From an uncultured Gemmatimonadota bacterium (GTDB lineage: Bacteria > Gemmatimonadota > Gemmatimonadetes > Gemmatimonadales > Gemmatimonadaceae): a stretch of 64,000 bases of DNA. Location: positions 248,001-312,000 of the forward strand of contig CAIVZZ010000015.1 in NCBI GenBank assembly GCA_903910555.1. Reading direction: 5' to 3'. The notes under the pieces were generated by a model, which saw only the letters and a list, made by a program, of their open reading frames with translations, ran no database searches and was not told where the DNA came from. The position numbers and the translations under genes were made by a program. How positions within the stretch are numbered: position 1 is the stretch's first letter; every line of letters starts with the position of its first letter. Positions 12,155 through 63,914 of the stretch are shown one piece after another.

Positions 12155-12245
12155 GGGCGAGGAGAACTACAGGGACGGGCAACGAGAACTACGGGGACGG
12201 GCGAAGCATGAGGGGCGACTTGGCGAGGAGCGAGGAGTGCGGAGG
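12155..12245 (+). repeat. Left arm of inverted-repeat cassette 1
   Basis: Contains two copies of a unit GAGAACTAC(A/G)GGGACGGGC (12162-12180 and 12184-12202). These are followed by GCGAAGCATGAGGGGCGACT and a GAGGAGCGAGGAG run. The same words return in reverse complement at 12840-12950, on the far side of the four-helix-bundle gene, where the unit is present four times. The arm starts about 20 bases upstream of the recO start codon, so it would fall in the recO promoter or leader. Confidence 0.8.
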
Positions 12246-12314: not shown

Positions 12315-12758
12315 ATGACAACCGACGCGAAGGACGATGCGCTCTCGGCTTGGGAGGCGAACCAACGCGAGAGTATCACTGGGGATCCGCTGTGGCGGCT
12401 CAATTGCTACCGCGAAGCGCTTTTCTTGGTGGAGTTAGCTCGCGACGACGTGAAGACATTCGATCTCGCTGTCGTACATACAGCGGCGAGGGAGCAGCTG
12501 CTGACGTCGGTCGCGTCGATCGCCGCGAATATTGCCGAGGGATACGGACGGCCGACTTCGCGTGACCGGATGCGATTCTTTTCATATGCGCTTGGATCGA
12601 CGCGCGAGGCGATTGCTTGGTATCAGGCACTCAGGCCTCCGAAAGAATCAGATGCAGTGGTCGACCGCCTCGATAGGCTCGCGCGCGTTCGGCGGATGCT
12701 GCTCGGGCTGCTTTCGCGGCTCAGAACTAAGGGGGCACGAAAGTTCGACTCTTGGTGA
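12315..12758 (+). CDS. Four-helix-bundle protein, S23/IVP (TIGR02436-like) family
   Basis: A small helical protein of 147 residues. The family signature is clear: REQLLTSVASIAANIAEGYG, then TSRDRMRFFSYALGSTREA, matching the helix 2-3 region of proteins first described from 23S rRNA intervening sequences and related to Avd of diversity-generating retroelements. The biochemical role of the family is uncertain; Avd binds nucleic acid. The start is ambiguous. ATG 12315 gives the version used here; a GTG at 12276 with AAGGTG upstream would add 13 residues. It is one of few plus-strand genes and lies between inverted repeats; its stop overlaps the first of two 20-nt direct repeats. It is visibly less GC-rich than its neighbours, which suggests transfer. 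Confidence 0.8.
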   Translation: MTTDAKDDALSAWEANQRESITGDPLWRLNCYREALFLVELARDDVKTFDLAVVHTAAREQLLTSVASIAANIAEGYGRPTSRDRMRFFSYALGSTREAIAWYQALRPPKESDAVVDRLDRLARVRRMLLGLLSRLRTKGARKFDSW

Positions 12759-12799
12759 CTTCGGGGACGAGCGAAGCGCACTTCGGGGACGAGCGAAGC
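12758..12799 (+). repeat. Tandem direct repeat at the end of the four-helix-bundle gene
   Basis: ACTTCGGGGACGAGCGAAGC occurs at 12758-12777 and again at 12780-12799 (period 22). The second copy runs on into the hairpin arm that follows. The first copy begins in the stop codon of the gene. Confidence 0.85.
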
Positions 12800-12950
12800 A
12801 TGAGGGGCAAATTGGCGACGGGGGAAGAGCGACGAGAGCTCCTCGCTACTCGCTCTTCGCCAATTTGCTCCTCATGCTTCGCCCGTCCCTGTAGTTCCCG
12901 TCCCTGTAGTTCCCGTCCCTGTAGTTCTCGTCCCTGTAGTTCTCTTCGCC
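12784..12950. repeat. Long hairpin plus tandem 15-mer array, right arm of cassette 1
   Basis: Bases about 12784-12838 are largely complementary to 12840-12889, forming an imperfect stem of about 50 bp with almost no loop. Then four tandem 15-nt units (CGTCCCTGTAGTTC plus C or T) occupy 12884-12943. These units are the reverse complement of the two spaced units in the left arm (12162-12202). The block is directly downstream of the TonB receptor gene on the minus strand and could end that transcript. Confidence 0.85.
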
Positions 12951-30233: not shown

Positions 30234-30253
30234 TCTCGGAAAGTTAAGAACGA

Positions 30254-30391
30254 GTGAACTGTTAACCACTAACTGTCGCTCGGTGTTCTGTTAGCAACTC
30301 AGTCCGAAGCACGACCCGTGTCGACGAGTCACGTAACCGCGACTAATTCGGTTACAGAAGACCGACCAACAGTTAGTAGTTAACAGTTCAC
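30254..30391. repeat. Long palindrome between ribD and ribE
   Basis: The 23-nt ends 30254-30276 and 30369-30391 are inverted copies with one mismatch. Pairing continues inward, imperfectly, to a centre at about GTCGAC (30320-30325), so the whole 138 bp is close to one palindrome with no gene in it. Its right end overlaps the ribD stop codon. The words GTTAAC, ACTAAC and GTTAGC recur. In RNA it would be a very stable hairpin and could reduce or insulate expression of ribE and later genes. Confidence 0.85.
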
Positions 30392-31488
30392 GCGTCGGAC
30401 ACCGTCATGGCGAACACAGTCATGAGATCGGCGCCAAATTCGCGCCGTTCAATGACCGCGAGTCGCTCCATCCCACCCACGGCGCTGAACGCCGGCAGCG
30501 AGCCCGGCCCCATCAGCACCGGCGCCTGAAAGATAATCAGGCGGTCCACTGCTTTGGCGGCCAAAAGGGCTCCAGAAAGGATCGATCCGCCCTCAACGAG
30601 CAGCGACCGAACCCCGCGCCGGCGAAGGACTTCCAGCTTCGGGACGATGTCGGGCGCGCTCTCGACCGTCACACCCTTGGCTTCGAGCGCACGGACCGCG
30701 CCCGCGTCCGCCTGGTCGGTCATCACGAGCGTCGGTACCCGCTTGGCTGACTTCACGAGGCGCGAAGCCAGCGGAAGGCGCCCGGAACGGTCGAAAACCA
30801 CCCGCAGCGGAGCGATGCGCGGCCGTTTGCCCTGGCGAACGGTGAGCTGCGGATCGTCGGCGAGCGCCGTTCCGATCCCGACGGCAATCGCATCGCTGTT
30901 CGCCCTCAAGCGATGCACGTACTTGCGGGCTGTTTCGCCGGTCAGCCAGCGCGGAGAGCCTGCAACTCCGGCGATCGCGCCGTCGAGCGATACGGCGAGC
31001 TTGAGCGTGACCCAGGGGCGCGTGGCCCCACTCGCCGCGAAAAAAAACGGAGCGTTCAGTTCGCGAGCGGCGGCTTCTTCAACGCCGAGCTCGACCTCTA
31101 TTCCTGCCGCGCGCAAACGTTCGGCGCCGCCGGATGACTCGCGCCCCGGATCGCGAACGGCCGCAACGACGCGTTTCACGCCGGCGGAGATCAGCGCGTC
31201 GACGCACGGCGGAGTTTTCCCATGGTGATTGCACGGCTCGAGCGTGACGCAAACAGTCGCGCCGCGCGCGCGATCGCCCGCCTCAGCAAGCGCCGCGACT
31301 TCTGCGTGCGCCTCGCCGTACTTCGCGTGGAATCCCTTCCCCACGATTACACCATCACGAACGACAACGGCGCCGACCATTGGGTTCGGCGCCGTCTGCC
31401 CCCATCCGCGTTCTGCGAGGGCGAGAGCCCGGCGCATCCACGCGCGTTCGTTGCGCTCGCGCGTGGAGGCCGGGGACTTCTCAGTCAT
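30388..31488 (-). CDS. ribD: Riboflavin biosynthesis deaminase/reductase
   Basis: Catalyses deamination and then NADPH-dependent side-chain reduction of the pyrimidine intermediate. The N-terminal deaminase domain has TAPNPMVGAVVV, GEAHAEVAAL and the zinc motif PCNHHGKTPPC. The C-terminal reductase domain starts about residue 155 with RPWVTLKLAVSLDGAIA and has LLVEGGSILSGALL. It is 366 residues. It is probably the first gene of the riboflavin-nusB-PTS run; no FMN riboswitch was found before it. Confidence 0.96.
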   Translation of the reverse strand: MTEKSPASTRERNERAWMRRALALAERGWGQTAPNPMVGAVVVRDGVIVGKGFHAKYGEAHAEVAALAEAGDRARGATVCVTLEPCNHHGKTPPCVDALISAGVKRVVAAVRDPGRESSGGAERLRAAGIEVELGVEEAAARELNAPFFFAASGATRPWVTLKLAVSLDGAIAGVAGSPRWLTGETARKYVHRLRANSDAIAVGIGTALADDPQLTVRQGKRPRIAPLRVVFDRSGRLPLASRLVKSAKRVPTLVMTDQADAGAVRALEAKGVTVESAPDIVPKLEVLRRRGVRSLLVEGGSILSGALLAAKAVDRLIIFQAPVLMGPGSLPAFSAVGGMERLAVIERREFGADLMTVFAMTVSDA

Positions 31489-53339: not shown

Positions 53340-53465
53340 CGACGTCAGACGTTAGCTGCGAGTTGTTAGCCGCGAGTCGAACAGCCTCTTTACAGGTCAG
53401 CGCGCGGATCTGTAAAGAGGCTGTTTATCTCGCGGCTATTCGCTCGCGGCTAACGTCTGACGTCG
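53340..53465. repeat. Long palindrome between the convergent genes mazG and asnS
   Basis: Arms 53340-53395 and 53410-53465 are 56 nt each, with 8 mismatches and a 14-nt loop. The inner 16 bp (AACAGCCTCTTTACAG and its complement) are perfect. No U-tract follows on either strand. It may act as a two-way transcript end. The left arm includes GACGTCAGACG and AGTTGTTAGCCGCGAG, shared with other repeats in the window. Confidence 0.85.
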
Positions 53466-60158: not shown

Positions 60159-61961
60159 TCATCTCAATCCGATTTTCCGGCGCAGGTACCACTCCGTGCA
60201 GAGCGCGAGCAGCGCGATCGCGTACAACCACCACAGCGAACGCGCGCGCGGTGCGCGGTCCGCCGCGGCCGCCGATCCAACGGCTCCCGAGTGCACCATC
60301 GGCTTGCGCGGAAGCCATTCCGCCGACCCGTTCACGACGAGCAGGCCGTCGCCGCCGGCGGTGTGTGTCTCATAGACGCCCGCCGCGAGTGGCGGCGTGT
60401 CCGCGACGCCGGTCTCGCCGGCGAATCGGAGCTGCAGTGTGTCCGCGCGCGACGCCGCGGGAGTAGCCGCAGCACGAAGCACGACGGTCGCGATGGAATC
60501 GCGCGCGCTGCCGCGCCGCCAGCGCACCGATTCACCCGCTCGCACCCACGCGACTGCGGGGTGCGCCGCGCGCACGTCCGTTGCGTCACCGGTGAGCCAG
60601 TCGAATACAGAACCCCAGAGCGCGGTGAACGCATCTGCGCTGCGCCCACCGCGAAACTTCCAGCGCCACAATCCGGACGCGCTCACGACCGCCACGCGGC
60701 GCGGCTTGGAGCTTCCCGAAACAATCGGACGTTCATCCATGCGACGCGCCCGCCGCGATGTGACCGCCACCCAGTCAGCGTCACGCGGCGCGAGACCGGG
60801 CTCCACGGGCGGCAGTGAATCCCACGGAAGTCCGCCGAGCGCGGCGAGCAGCGGCGACGGCGGCGCGCCGACGGCGTAGTAGTCGTCACCCTTCTGCGCG
60901 GGAGGCGCGATCAGCGCGAGCGCGCCACGTGTGAATGTGCGCGGCGGTCCGAACACCGCCGTGTCGCCGTGAATGACGGCGAGCGGCGCTTCGGCAATAC
61001 TGCGGCGCACTTCGTCTTCAGCCACCACCGTCAGCGACCCGTCCTGCACCCACCGCCCCGGTGCGACGCGGAAATATCCGCGCGTCGGCACGGCGAGCGT
61101 GCCGCGCAGCACGTCGAGCGCGTACCGGGCGTCTTCGTCGGGCGCCGTCGAGGCAAACACTGCCGACGCACCGCGTGCGACATCGAGCGCGAAGCTCAGC
61201 GTGTCGTTTGCCGCGAGCGCGTCGCCGTCGGTGGAAACGACGAGCTTGAGCAGACGCGCGCCCGGCGCGCCACCGATCTGCGTGCGCAGTCGCACCGTAC
61301 GCTCGGCGTACGACGCGAGCGAGTCGACCGGCGCGGAAACGAGTGCAACGCTTCCCTGCATCAGCGAAATGCGACCAGCGTGCGATCCGGCACCACCAGA
61401 CGCAATCACCGCATTGAACTCGACCGTGTCACCGACAACCGCCGCCGCAGGCCCGTCGACCGAAATGACAGCCGCATCGAGCCGCGACTTCCCTTCGAGT
61501 GCAATCACCGTTGATCCCGACGGCAGGTCGGCGAGGCGCTCCGGATCGTCCACACGGCCGTCGGTGACGAAGACGACCGCGCGCCCGGCGCCGAGCGCGC
61601 GCTCGACGAGCGGCGCGACGCGCGTCACGCGATCGACCGGTGTTTTCGGAGCGGATCCGGCGCGGACAGAATCGCCGAGCAGGAGCAGCGTGTCTGCGCC
61701 GACGGAATCGGCGCTGTGAACTGCGCGGGACCAGAGTGAACTGTCGCCAGCCGCGATCCAGCTCGCCGACGCATCGAGCGCGGCGTATGGCCGTGCGCGC
61801 CGCGACGGTCCGCCGGGCGCGTCGAGCAGCAGCGCGACGATGATCGTGACCGCGAGCGCGCGAAGTGCGAGCGGCACGCGCGCGTGAGCCGCGCCGCCAA
61901 AGTGGTACTGCGCGACTGCGAGCGCCGAGCCGGCGACGATGGCAATAAGCCAGATGAGCAT
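60159..61961 (-). CDS. Large membrane protein with extracytoplasmic VWA/Bat-like region, function unknown
   Basis: 600 residues. Two N-terminal TM helices (about 1-17 and 30-46), a long extracytoplasmic part, and a final TM helix SLWWLYAIALLALCTEWYLRR. The first part resembles the VWA-like fold of BatA/aerotolerance-type proteins (ALDASASWIAAGDSS, AVVFVTDGRVDDPERLADLP), with the first metal-site motif only partly kept. Later parts are beta-rich (Ig-like) and include a GATase-like stretch. Proteins of this shape sit with MoxR ATPases elsewhere, but none is seen here. The specific role is unknown. Confidence 0.65.
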   Translation of the reverse strand: MLIWLIAIVAGSALAVAQYHFGGAAHARVPLALRALAVTIIVALLLDAPGGPSRRARPYAALDASASWIAAGDSSLWSRAVHSADSVGADTLLLLGDSVRAGSAPKTPVDRVTRVAPLVERALGAGRAVVFVTDGRVDDPERLADLPSGSTVIALEGKSRLDAAVISVDGPAAAVVGDTVEFNAVIASGGAGSHAGRISLMQGSVALVSAPVDSLASYAERTVRLRTQIGGAPGARLLKLVVSTDGDALAANDTLSFALDVARGASAVFASTAPDEDARYALDVLRGTLAVPTRGYFRVAPGRWVQDGSLTVVAEDEVRRSIAEAPLAVIHGDTAVFGPPRTFTRGALALIAPPAQKGDDYYAVGAPPSPLLAALGGLPWDSLPPVEPGLAPRDADWVAVTSRRARRMDERPIVSGSSKPRRVAVVSASGLWRWKFRGGRSADAFTALWGSVFDWLTGDATDVRAAHPAVAWVRAGESVRWRRGSARDSIATVVLRAAATPAASRADTLQLRFAGETGVADTPPLAAGVYETHTAGGDGLLVVNGSAEWLPRKPMVHSGAVGSAAAADRAPRARSLWWLYAIALLALCTEWYLRRKIGLR

Positions 61962-62042
61962 CGGATAAAACTACGCGCGGCGACGCGGAATCGCGGGGGG
62001 AGCTAGAAGCTGAGGGCGACTGATAACGGCGGTATTGGGTTG

Positions 62043-62105
62043 TCGCAACAAAAGGTGTGCGTTAACGGTCGTTGGGCGTTGGTTTCGAACTAACGGCGAC
62101 GGGAC
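62043..62105 (+). repeat. Left 63-nt inverted-repeat arm of cassette 2
   Basis: Begins TCGCAACAAAAGGTGTGCG and ends GGCGACGGGAC. It is the reverse complement of 62542-62604 except for one C/T position. It is non-coding on this side and lies about 80 bases upstream of the gene start. Confidence 0.95.
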
Positions 62106-62183
62106 AGGTCGTGCGGGGGAATGATTTGAGGGGGGGGAGAGATTGGTGAAGCAATTTGCGAGCGCGACAATAGCTTGGGCGTT

Positions 62184-62585
62184 ATGCAAGACTTTCGTCG
62201 ACTTGAGGTGTGGCGGCTGGGGCATGCACTGGCACTCAACGTCCAGCGCCTGAGCGCGTCGATCGCACGCCAGGACAATGCCGGTCTGGTCAGTCAGATG
62301 CGGCGGGCGGCGACGTCGATATCGGCAAACGTCGCAGAGGGCGCGGCGAAAGAAACTCGAAAGGAGTTCGCCCGGTTTCTCGTGATCGCGATCGCATCTG
62401 CCGCAGAACTCGAAAACCACCTGCTGTTTTGCCGAGATGCGGTGCTCGCTCCAGAGTCGGAAGTTGCCTCCCGAATCGCCGAAACAGTCCAAGTCCGAAA
62501 GATGCTCTTCGGCCTATTGAAAAGGGTCCGCGAACAAGACGGTCCCGTCGCCGTTAGTTCGAAACCAACGCCCAACAACCGTTAA
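62184..62585 (+). CDS. Four-helix-bundle protein, S23/IVP (TIGR02436-like) family, second copy
   Basis: 133 residues, opening MQDFRRLEVWRLGHALALNV, the classic start of the 23S rRNA intervening-sequence protein family. QMRRAATSISANVAEGAAKE and FARFLVIAIASAAELENHL follow, the core helices 2 and 3. A positively charged surface is likely; family function is unsettled. The final stretch VAVSSKPTPNNR is encoded by the right inverted-repeat arm and is probably unstructured. ATG 62184 is preferred over an upstream in-frame start at 62175. It differs strongly in sequence from the copy at 12315-12758, so the two are not a recent duplication. Confidence 0.88.
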   Translation: MQDFRRLEVWRLGHALALNVQRLSASIARQDNAGLVSQMRRAATSISANVAEGAAKETRKEFARFLVIAIASAAELENHLLFCRDAVLAPESEVASRIAETVQVRKMLFGLLKRVREQDGPVAVSSKPTPNNR

Positions 62586-62604
62586 CGCACACCTTTTGTT
62601 GCGA
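62542..62604 (-). repeat. Right 63-nt inverted-repeat arm of cassette 2, overlapping the gene end
   Basis: Inverted copy of 62043-62105 with one mismatch. The stop codon of the four-helix-bundle gene (62583-62585) lies within it, so the arm is partly coding on this side only. Confidence 0.95.
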
Positions 62605-62639
62605 TAACCGGGTACTCAGTACGTAGTGCCGGCTCCCAG

Positions 62640-63914
62640 TCAGTGCGCGACCGTCGCAGGCACTTTGACTGCCCCCGCCGGCAGATCGAGCCGCGCCAGC
62701 GCCTCATGCCGCACCCGATCGAACGCCGCCAAATCACCCGACCCGAGCGGCGGCCCGGAGTTCGACTTGAGCGCCGTGCGCGGATCGCGCTGCACCCCGC
62801 CGACGAGCACTTCGAAGTGCAGATGCGGCCCGGTCGCGAGGCCGGTCATACCGACGTAGCCGATCGTCTGGCCCATCGAGACTCGCGAGCCCGTTCGGAT
62901 CCCCGACGCGAACCCTTTCATATGCCCGTAGCGCGTGACGAAGCCGTTTGGGTGGCGGATGTCGATGCTGTTGCCGTAGCCGCCGCGCGTCCCGGCGAAA
63001 ATGACAATACCGTTTCCGATGGAGCGAATCGGCGTTCCGCTCGCGGCTGCGTAGTCGGTGCCTTTGTGCGAGCGCCATTCGCCGAGGATCGGGTGCTCGC
63101 GCATGCCGAAGACGCTGGAAATGCGTCGGAAGGAAAGCGGCGCGCGAAGAAACTGCGCGCGCAGCGAGTGTCCGTCCTGGTCGTAGTAGTCAGCCTTGGA
63201 TTCGCCTTGCGGTACGAAGCGAATCGCCTGCAGCTCTGCGCCGCTCCGCTCGAGCCCGGCGGCGAGGATCGCACCGATGCGCTCGACGCCTGCGGGCGAA
63301 CGCGACCGCTCGAACACCGCGCGGACTGCATCGCCGTCCTGAAGTTCACGGCTCATGTCGACGCGATATTCGAAAATATCAGCGATCGCCCACGCCAGCT
63401 CGGCGCGTGCTCCTTTCGAGTGGAGATCGCCCGCACCGGCGTTTACCGCAACGTAGAGGTTGGTGTGCACGACCCCGTGCATGACGAGCGTATCGGTGAC
63501 CCATGGCGTGCGCTCTTCGCGCGACGACCAGCTGTTACCGGCGCGCACGAGATGGAGCGTAAGATCGGCCGAGAACATGAGCGCGACGTCCGTCGGCCGC
63601 GGATCGGTGCCGTTCGTACTGTCACCGGCAAAGCGCACCTCCATTCCGGCTGGGATTTTGCGCGGGTCGATTAACGTGGCGGAGCGGATCGCGGCCGATT
63701 GATCGTCGCCGCCGAGGCCACCGCGGGCGAGAACATTTGCGAGCGACTCACCCTTCCCGACCGTATCGACGCTGCTCCATGCGCCTGCGGGGCCCGACGG
63801 CGGCGCGTTGGGCCGCTGCGGCAGAGCCGGCCCGAAGCGAAGCGCGGCGGCAGCCAGTAGGGCCACCGCCGCGCCTGTAACCCAGAGGGCGACGCGATTA
63901 CGCGACGCCGTCAA
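62640..63914 (-). CDS. M23-family peptidoglycan endopeptidase (LytM type)
   Basis: 424 residues. An N-terminal anchor (about 8-26, VALWVTGAAVALLAAAAL) and a periplasmic region with GKGESLANVLARGGLG, a LysM/OapA-like stretch, lead to the LytM domain (about 270-385). The zinc site is His283 and Asp287 in HKGTDYA, and His364/His366 in HLHFEV, so it should be an active enzyme cutting cross-link peptides. A TTG start at 63914 overlaps the ftsZ stop (TTGA), tying it to cell division. The protein ends 34 bases from cassette 2. Confidence 0.92.
   Translation of the reverse strand: MTASRNRVALWVTGAAVALLAAAALRFGPALPQRPNAPPSGPAGAWSSVDTVGKGESLANVLARGGLGGDDQSAAIRSATLIDPRKIPAGMEVRFAGDSTNGTDPRPTDVALMFSADLTLHLVRAGNSWSSREERTPWVTDTLVMHGVVHTNLYVAVNAGAGDLHSKGARAELAWAIADIFEYRVDMSRELQDGDAVRAVFERSRSPAGVERIGAILAAGLERSGAELQAIRFVPQGESKADYYDQDGHSLRAQFLRAPLSFRRISSVFGMREHPILGEWRSHKGTDYAAASGTPIRSIGNGIVIFAGTRGGYGNSIDIRHPNGFVTRYGHMKGFASGIRTGSRVSMGQTIGYVGMTGLATGPHLHFEVLVGGVQRDPRTALKSNSGPPLGSGDLAAFDRVRHEALARLDLPAGAVKVPATVAH

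Follow-up and report, generated by a model that had tools for sequence, protein, structure and literature searches.

Introduction

The closest described relatives of the element analyzed here are the intervening sequences (IVSs) of rRNA genes, in which S23 is encoded between terminal inverted repeats that pair with each other; these units are excised by RNase III and have been described as selfish elements (PMC4990558). In the Coxiella IVS, tandem heptamers of the form GACAGAT lie upstream of the S23p gene, and the S23 protein of Xanthomonas is a homopentamer (PMC4990558). Heptanucleotide repeats are also known from intergenic regions of other bacteria—GGGAATC in Xanthomonas, GGGGATT in Nostoc and TAACTGA in the Beggiatoaceae—where some form inverted pairs (PMC4692102, PMC4679880); S23 does not occur in the texts of these two papers, which draw no link between it and the heptamers. 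Comparison is further invited by the MITEs, REPINs and BIMEs, which are short dispersed palindromes without a transposase gene, and by the diversity-generating retroelements (DGRs), whose Avd protein has the same four-helix-bundle fold as S23. We know of no function for S23. Our literature search, with most subscription journals outside its coverage, found no paper joining S23, heptamers and mobility.

Here, we describe an S23 unit located in the window, by which we mean the whole 64,000-nucleotide stretch analyzed, from the genome of an uncultured Gemmatimonadota bacterium (G000; 3.2 Mb, rated 100% complete). Comparisons with its relatives, as far as sequences can tell, make it very probable that S23 units are minimal mobile elements belonging to one widespread class.

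Results

The Unit at the Window Locus

The unit is built around a gene for a four-helix-bundle protein of the S23 (23S_rRNA_IVP) family at 62184..62585 on the forward strand, which codes for 133 aa from an ATG start and matches PF05635 with an E-value of 5.8e-28. It is enclosed by a left arm at 62038..62105 (+), 68 nt in length, and a right arm at 62542..62609 (−), the left arm's inverted copy with 97% identity; the last ~14 codons of the gene lie inside the right arm. The arm-pair alignment scores 126, against a maximum of 37 both in 2000 Markov pairs and over 535 random placements within the window. In RNA folding prediction, the unit falls 12 SD below shuffled versions, with its ends pairing into a stem.

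The first-pass annotation, made from the sequence alone, had described a single S23-family gene between 63-nt ends that are inverted copies with one mismatch, standing between two envelope genes with no rRNA. Most of this held: 62043-62105 agrees with the reverse complement of 62542-62604 at all but 1 of 63 positions, the PF05635 gene is the only one between them, and an Rfam search of the element and its locus recovered no family and no rRNA, the site lying between two protein genes. The envelope character of the neighbors is half supported, because the gene at 62640-63914 (−) codes for an M23 peptidase and the one at 60159-61961 (−) had no match in a Pfam search.

S23 Units and Gene-Less Palindromes in the Genome

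We found 11 PF05635 genes in G000, and long inverted repeats surround every one of them (11/11). Their arms span 44-169 nt, score 58-198 and differ in sequence from one element to another. The arm of the window element itself recurs in G000 in at least seven gene-less palindromes of ~150-175 bp, each consisting of the arm, a short loop and the inverted arm. Gene-less palindromes with this arm are also present in the sister species G010 and G012, and the arm is absent from the other relatives searched. The arm is thus not confined to a single occurrence, recurring both with and without the gene, and the family of the window element displays the dispersed copies with terminal inverted repeats by which MITEs are recognized.

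Within the window, just three short-loop palindromes score at least 50 (nulls 26-32), and all are S23-related. The gene-less palindrome at 30250..30395 has arms matching the S23 element L034 (G000:C11:21050) at 88-96%, and that at 53340..53465 has arms matching the S23 element L033 (G000:C18:43859) at 78-92%. The window also contains a second S23 element (L041; 12159-12932), whose gene at 12315..12758 (+) belongs to a divergent subfamily (PF05635 5.7e-12; family match 12405-12635). Its left arm lies at 12159..12244 (+), with an inverted-repeat score of 100 versus a control maximum of 37, and its right arm (12839-12932) falls in the segment 12780..12932 (−), which overlaps a palindrome at 12780-12895. 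This element has arms of GAACTACAGGGACGGG repeats, which differ from those of the unit at 62038..62609, and its 3′ arm forms a palindrome of its own. A separate repeat of ~90-150 nt (about 235-400 of the query L006:900-2300) has many copies in the genus, among them G000:C1:128017, C2:106454, C3 and others.

A 7-nt Period across Phyla

In this phylum, 104 of 200 genomes sampled carry S23 genes, which also occur in many other phyla. We use two sets of arms below: 25 from the genus, and a broad set of 101 S23 loci, 76 of them obtained by a contig scan over many phyla, which favors S23 proteins with conserved motifs, and 25 from this phylum. The 25 genus arms match themselves at a lag of 7 nt with a frequency of 0.431 versus an expected 0.307 (z 11.9), and the self-match peaks strongly at 7, 14, 21 and 28. 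Across the 101 loci, the lag-7 z reaches 27.4 in the 150 nt upstream of the gene and 24.9 in the 150 nt downstream; control stretches from the same loci display the codon period only, with a negative lag-7 value. Lags of 7 or 14 score best in 88% of upstream and 79% of downstream flanks versus about 10% of controls.

This signal is usually arranged as inverted heptamer arms, typically (AGCTATC)n, (TAGCTGT)n, (CAGTTAA)n, (AAGTTAT)n or (GGTGTCG)n, with a median arm of 36 nt, i.e., 5.1 heptads. The inverted-repeat score exceeds every control at 57/101 S23 loci versus 0/277 controls, with about 44% of the loci within the control range. The window arm can be read by eye in heptads with a G/GG spacing (GGTCGTT, GGGCGTT, GGTTTCG, AACTAAC, GGCGACG and GGACAGG); its own lag-7 z is only 0.5, and the heptad period of the window element is therefore inferred from its family. 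Lone heptamer arrays with no inverted partner occur at S23-empty sites, e.g., ATTACGA (L256, 870-990) and GTCGTTG (L272), and may be remnants or targets.

The composition-corrected similarity of heptamers climbs steadily as the S23 proteins become more alike (0.01 at <35% identity, 0.24 at >70%), and the co-variation holds between phyla (composition-corrected Mantel r = 0.28, p = 0.0005). This version of the test replaced the raw one because reverse complements correlated as highly in the latter, i.e., it reflected base composition. As an example, units of Nostocales plasmids and one unit of this phylum, with 64-74% protein identity, have the same CAGGAGT/CAGAAGT heptamers. Such co-variation fits recognition of the arms by S23, and co-inheritance of gene and arms alone could also give it.

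The Locus in the Genus

In G010, the window element occupies the same place in the same orientation. In G012 (L092, G012:C24:15300-18500), by comparison with the window, the S23 core reads in the opposite direction with respect to its two flanks. At the corresponding locus, G002 carries an unrelated palindrome and no S23 gene. G016, G006, G007, G008 and G013 have a short spacer alone; the flanks are too diverged for a target duplication to be compared at this site. The arms of the element are 97% identical to each other in G000 and 94% in G012, versus about 85% between these two species, and 7 of the substitutions separating G000 from G012 are common to both arms, with no such excess in G010. 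Judging from these substitutions, the two arms of the window element evolve together.

The gene-less palindrome on contig C13 is present in G012 and missing from G010, which has the lone GTCGTTG array there. G002 has a palindrome family of its own (CACTGCTTCAGTTCCCCAC; L093, L273) at two sites, one of them that on C13, where G000 has the window's family; the same spacers have therefore been reused by different families. This G002 family has 30-34 nt in common with the arms of the S23 locus L114 of the same genome, a likeness that we do not count as proof because the polarity is opposite. Among 18 congeners, the S23 copy number ranges from 0 to 11. Five S23 genes of the genus have no clear inverted repeat (L103, L104, L106, L108 and L110), and may be decayed or domesticated.

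Filled and Empty Sites

Direct comparisons of filled and empty sites come from the Nostocales. An S23 unit is found in plasmid C of Trichormus variabilis and in a Scytonema plasmid, and the site is empty in plasmids of Tolypothrix and Aulosira, with flanks about 97.5-97.7% identical; the empty site has a single GTAAT, and in the filled one a copy borders the insert at either end. At a second site, the unit is present in the Nostoc plasmids pC052_D, pNsp_a and pNPM1 and absent from four plasmids, and TTCTA is duplicated. Target duplications in related units are thus ~5 bp, as measured in these two Nostocales insertions. One gene further along, Nostoc pNsp_c contains an S23 unit of another kind, whose arms are of the GGGGAAAA type. 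Additional filled/empty pairs were found in the cas6–cas4 and nrdB–nrdA intervals as well as behind an integrase gene.

The Nostocales inserts contain arms and S23, with no other content, and L259, a 170-nt derivative by internal deletion, resembles the gene-less palindromes found in G000. Three Nostocales insertions run in the sense direction of the operon, and the window unit, L238 and L240 are antisense to their neighbors. In L251 (Nostoc pNPM1), ~180 extra nt interrupt the S23 gene relative to near-identical relatives. We found no S23 relatives in 50,697 phage records at an E-value of 1e-5.

The S23 Fold and Candidate Movers

The AlphaFold2 model of the window S23 protein (pLDDT 90.7) matches 2gsc with a TM score of 0.94 (TM scores normalized by target) and also matches 2rld; both structures have five chains. 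It further matches Avd of the DGRs (4dwl, TM 0.83) and the DGR ribonucleoprotein 8ub7, and the Nostoc S23 has a sub-threshold match to PF22296. No catalytic site is evident in S23, which bears no known catalytic motif.

Searches of G000 at set thresholds for five mobility families (RVT_1, Y1_Tnp, DDE_Tnp_1, rve and IS110) returned no match, and RVT_1 is found in one of 18 genomes of the genus. Schemes based on a RAYT or a reverse transcriptase are disfavored in G000, with Y1_Tnp and RVT_1 both lacking a match. We also considered a parent element that encodes a transposase and has the same ends as the units: the gene-bearing relatives carry S23 alone, and none of the five families matched.

Discussion

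Relationship to Described Systems

The window unit and the IVSs of 23S and 16S rRNA in Coxiella, Leptospira and CPR bacteria have in common a PF05635 gene between pairing inverted repeats. In contrast to an IVS, the window unit lies outside rRNA, and its class is dispersed and multi-copy, with gene-less derivatives and with filled and empty sites on plasmids. An Rfam search near 20 of the broad-set S23 loci likewise found no rRNA, and the unit therefore works like an rRNA IVS and is not one. On the best reading, the rRNA IVSs are the rRNA-resident form of this mobile class. The first-pass annotation had offered a free-living relative of IVSs, a non-autonomous mobile element and an RNA-level element whose stem would be bound by its own protein as separate readings, and the first two are supported together by the dispersed arms with and without the gene, the filled and empty sites with short duplications and the IVS plan. 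The 7-nt period and the spread across phyla go beyond what it had described.

The class differs from MITEs, REPINs and BIMEs in that its coding parent carries S23 rather than a transposase, that its arms are united by a 7-nt period rather than by a fixed end sequence, and that the Y1 transposase by which REP/BIME–RAYT systems are recognized has no match in G000. It differs likewise from a DGR, which combines a reverse transcriptase with Avd, in that G000 has no RVT_1 match.

A Proposed Mechanism

Comparison among genomes brings out the architecture, the heptad period of the family, the mobility of the relatives and the gene-less derivatives. Building on these, we consider it reasonably probable that the window unit belongs to a class in which one S23 gene is framed by two inverted arms, usually built of degenerate 7-nt repeats, and that it is mobile in the following manner. 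The element would insert into new intergenic and operon positions with a short target duplication, and internal deletion would give rise to gene-less palindromes with the same arms, which would spread too. A pentameric ring of S23 would bind its own arm over about five consecutive heptads and would supply end or target specificity, with strand cutting and joining performed by a host enzyme or an uncharacterized activity. In the transcript, pairing of the arms would create a long hairpin open to cleavage by RNase III, and we propose that the same element is therefore tolerated inside rRNA as an IVS. Within this scheme, the role of S23 as the arm-recognizing factor is about evenly balanced between yes and no, and it is unlikely that S23 itself catalyzes movement.

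Alternative Explanations

A possibility to which we give distinctly less weight is that the units are MITE-like passengers, with a conventional transposase elsewhere in the cell moving both the gene-bearing and the gene-less forms and S23 being cargo or modulator. Target duplications of ~5 bp and gene-less palindromes are typical of MITEs, and insertion sequences are expected to abound in cyanobacterial hosts, which counts toward such a passenger. Against it, elements within a single genome have arms unrelated to one another in sequence, unlike the ends used by a transposase, five major mobility families are without a match in G000, S23 has been retained in the unit over many phyla, and the heptamer type tracks the S23 sequence. 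Since the search covered five families, a transposase outside them may be present in G000. We judge it improbable that the unit is instead selfish at the RNA level, its transcript hairpin being excised or processed and returned to DNA via RNA by intron-like or Avd/reverse-transcriptase-like retromobility. The fold common to S23 and the Avd of the DGR complex, the sub-threshold PF22296 match, the excision of rRNA IVSs by RNase III (PMC4990558) and the sense orientation of three Nostocales insertions all point in that direction; the scarcity of RVT_1, with none in G000 and one genome of 18 in the genus, and the antisense placement of the window unit, L238 and L240 point away from it.

Slippage or template switching, by which heptamer arrays would expand through slipped replication and hairpins would copy themselves while S23 is merely tolerated in fragile sites, is similarly hard to credit. 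It draws on the over-representation of heptamer repeats in some bacteria, for which work cited within PMC4679880 and PMC4692102 has proposed slippage, and on the lone heptamer arrays at S23-empty sites (L256 and in G010), but it leaves unexplained the presence of S23 across phyla, the clean empty sites with duplications and the tracking of S23 by the heptamers. Three sister species share the unit at this locus, which might suggest an ordinary gene passed on by vertical descent, its hairpin being a regulatory element or a terminator. That reading is scarcely credible given the unit's absence from other congeners, the inverted core in G012, the different palindrome in G002, the dispersal of the arms in the genome and the filled and empty sites of the relatives.

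Significance

Going beyond the mechanism proposed above, a more speculative and rather doubtful reading gives S23 the part of movement protein in a transposition of a new kind. As a pentameric four-helix bundle that is not a transposase, it would read heptads in a TRAP-like manner, one subunit per 7-nt repeat, and move its own hairpin unit as well as gene-less copies in trans, with the rRNA IVSs and many bacterial heptamer repeats being its footprints. The tie between S23, heptamers and mobility would in itself, if it holds, account for a common protein family, for the rRNA IVSs and perhaps for some of the surplus of 7-nt repeats seen in bacterial genomes. The S23 heptad element would then be among the smallest mobile elements known, and the old question of how IVSs spread would come down to a simple binding and transposition assay.
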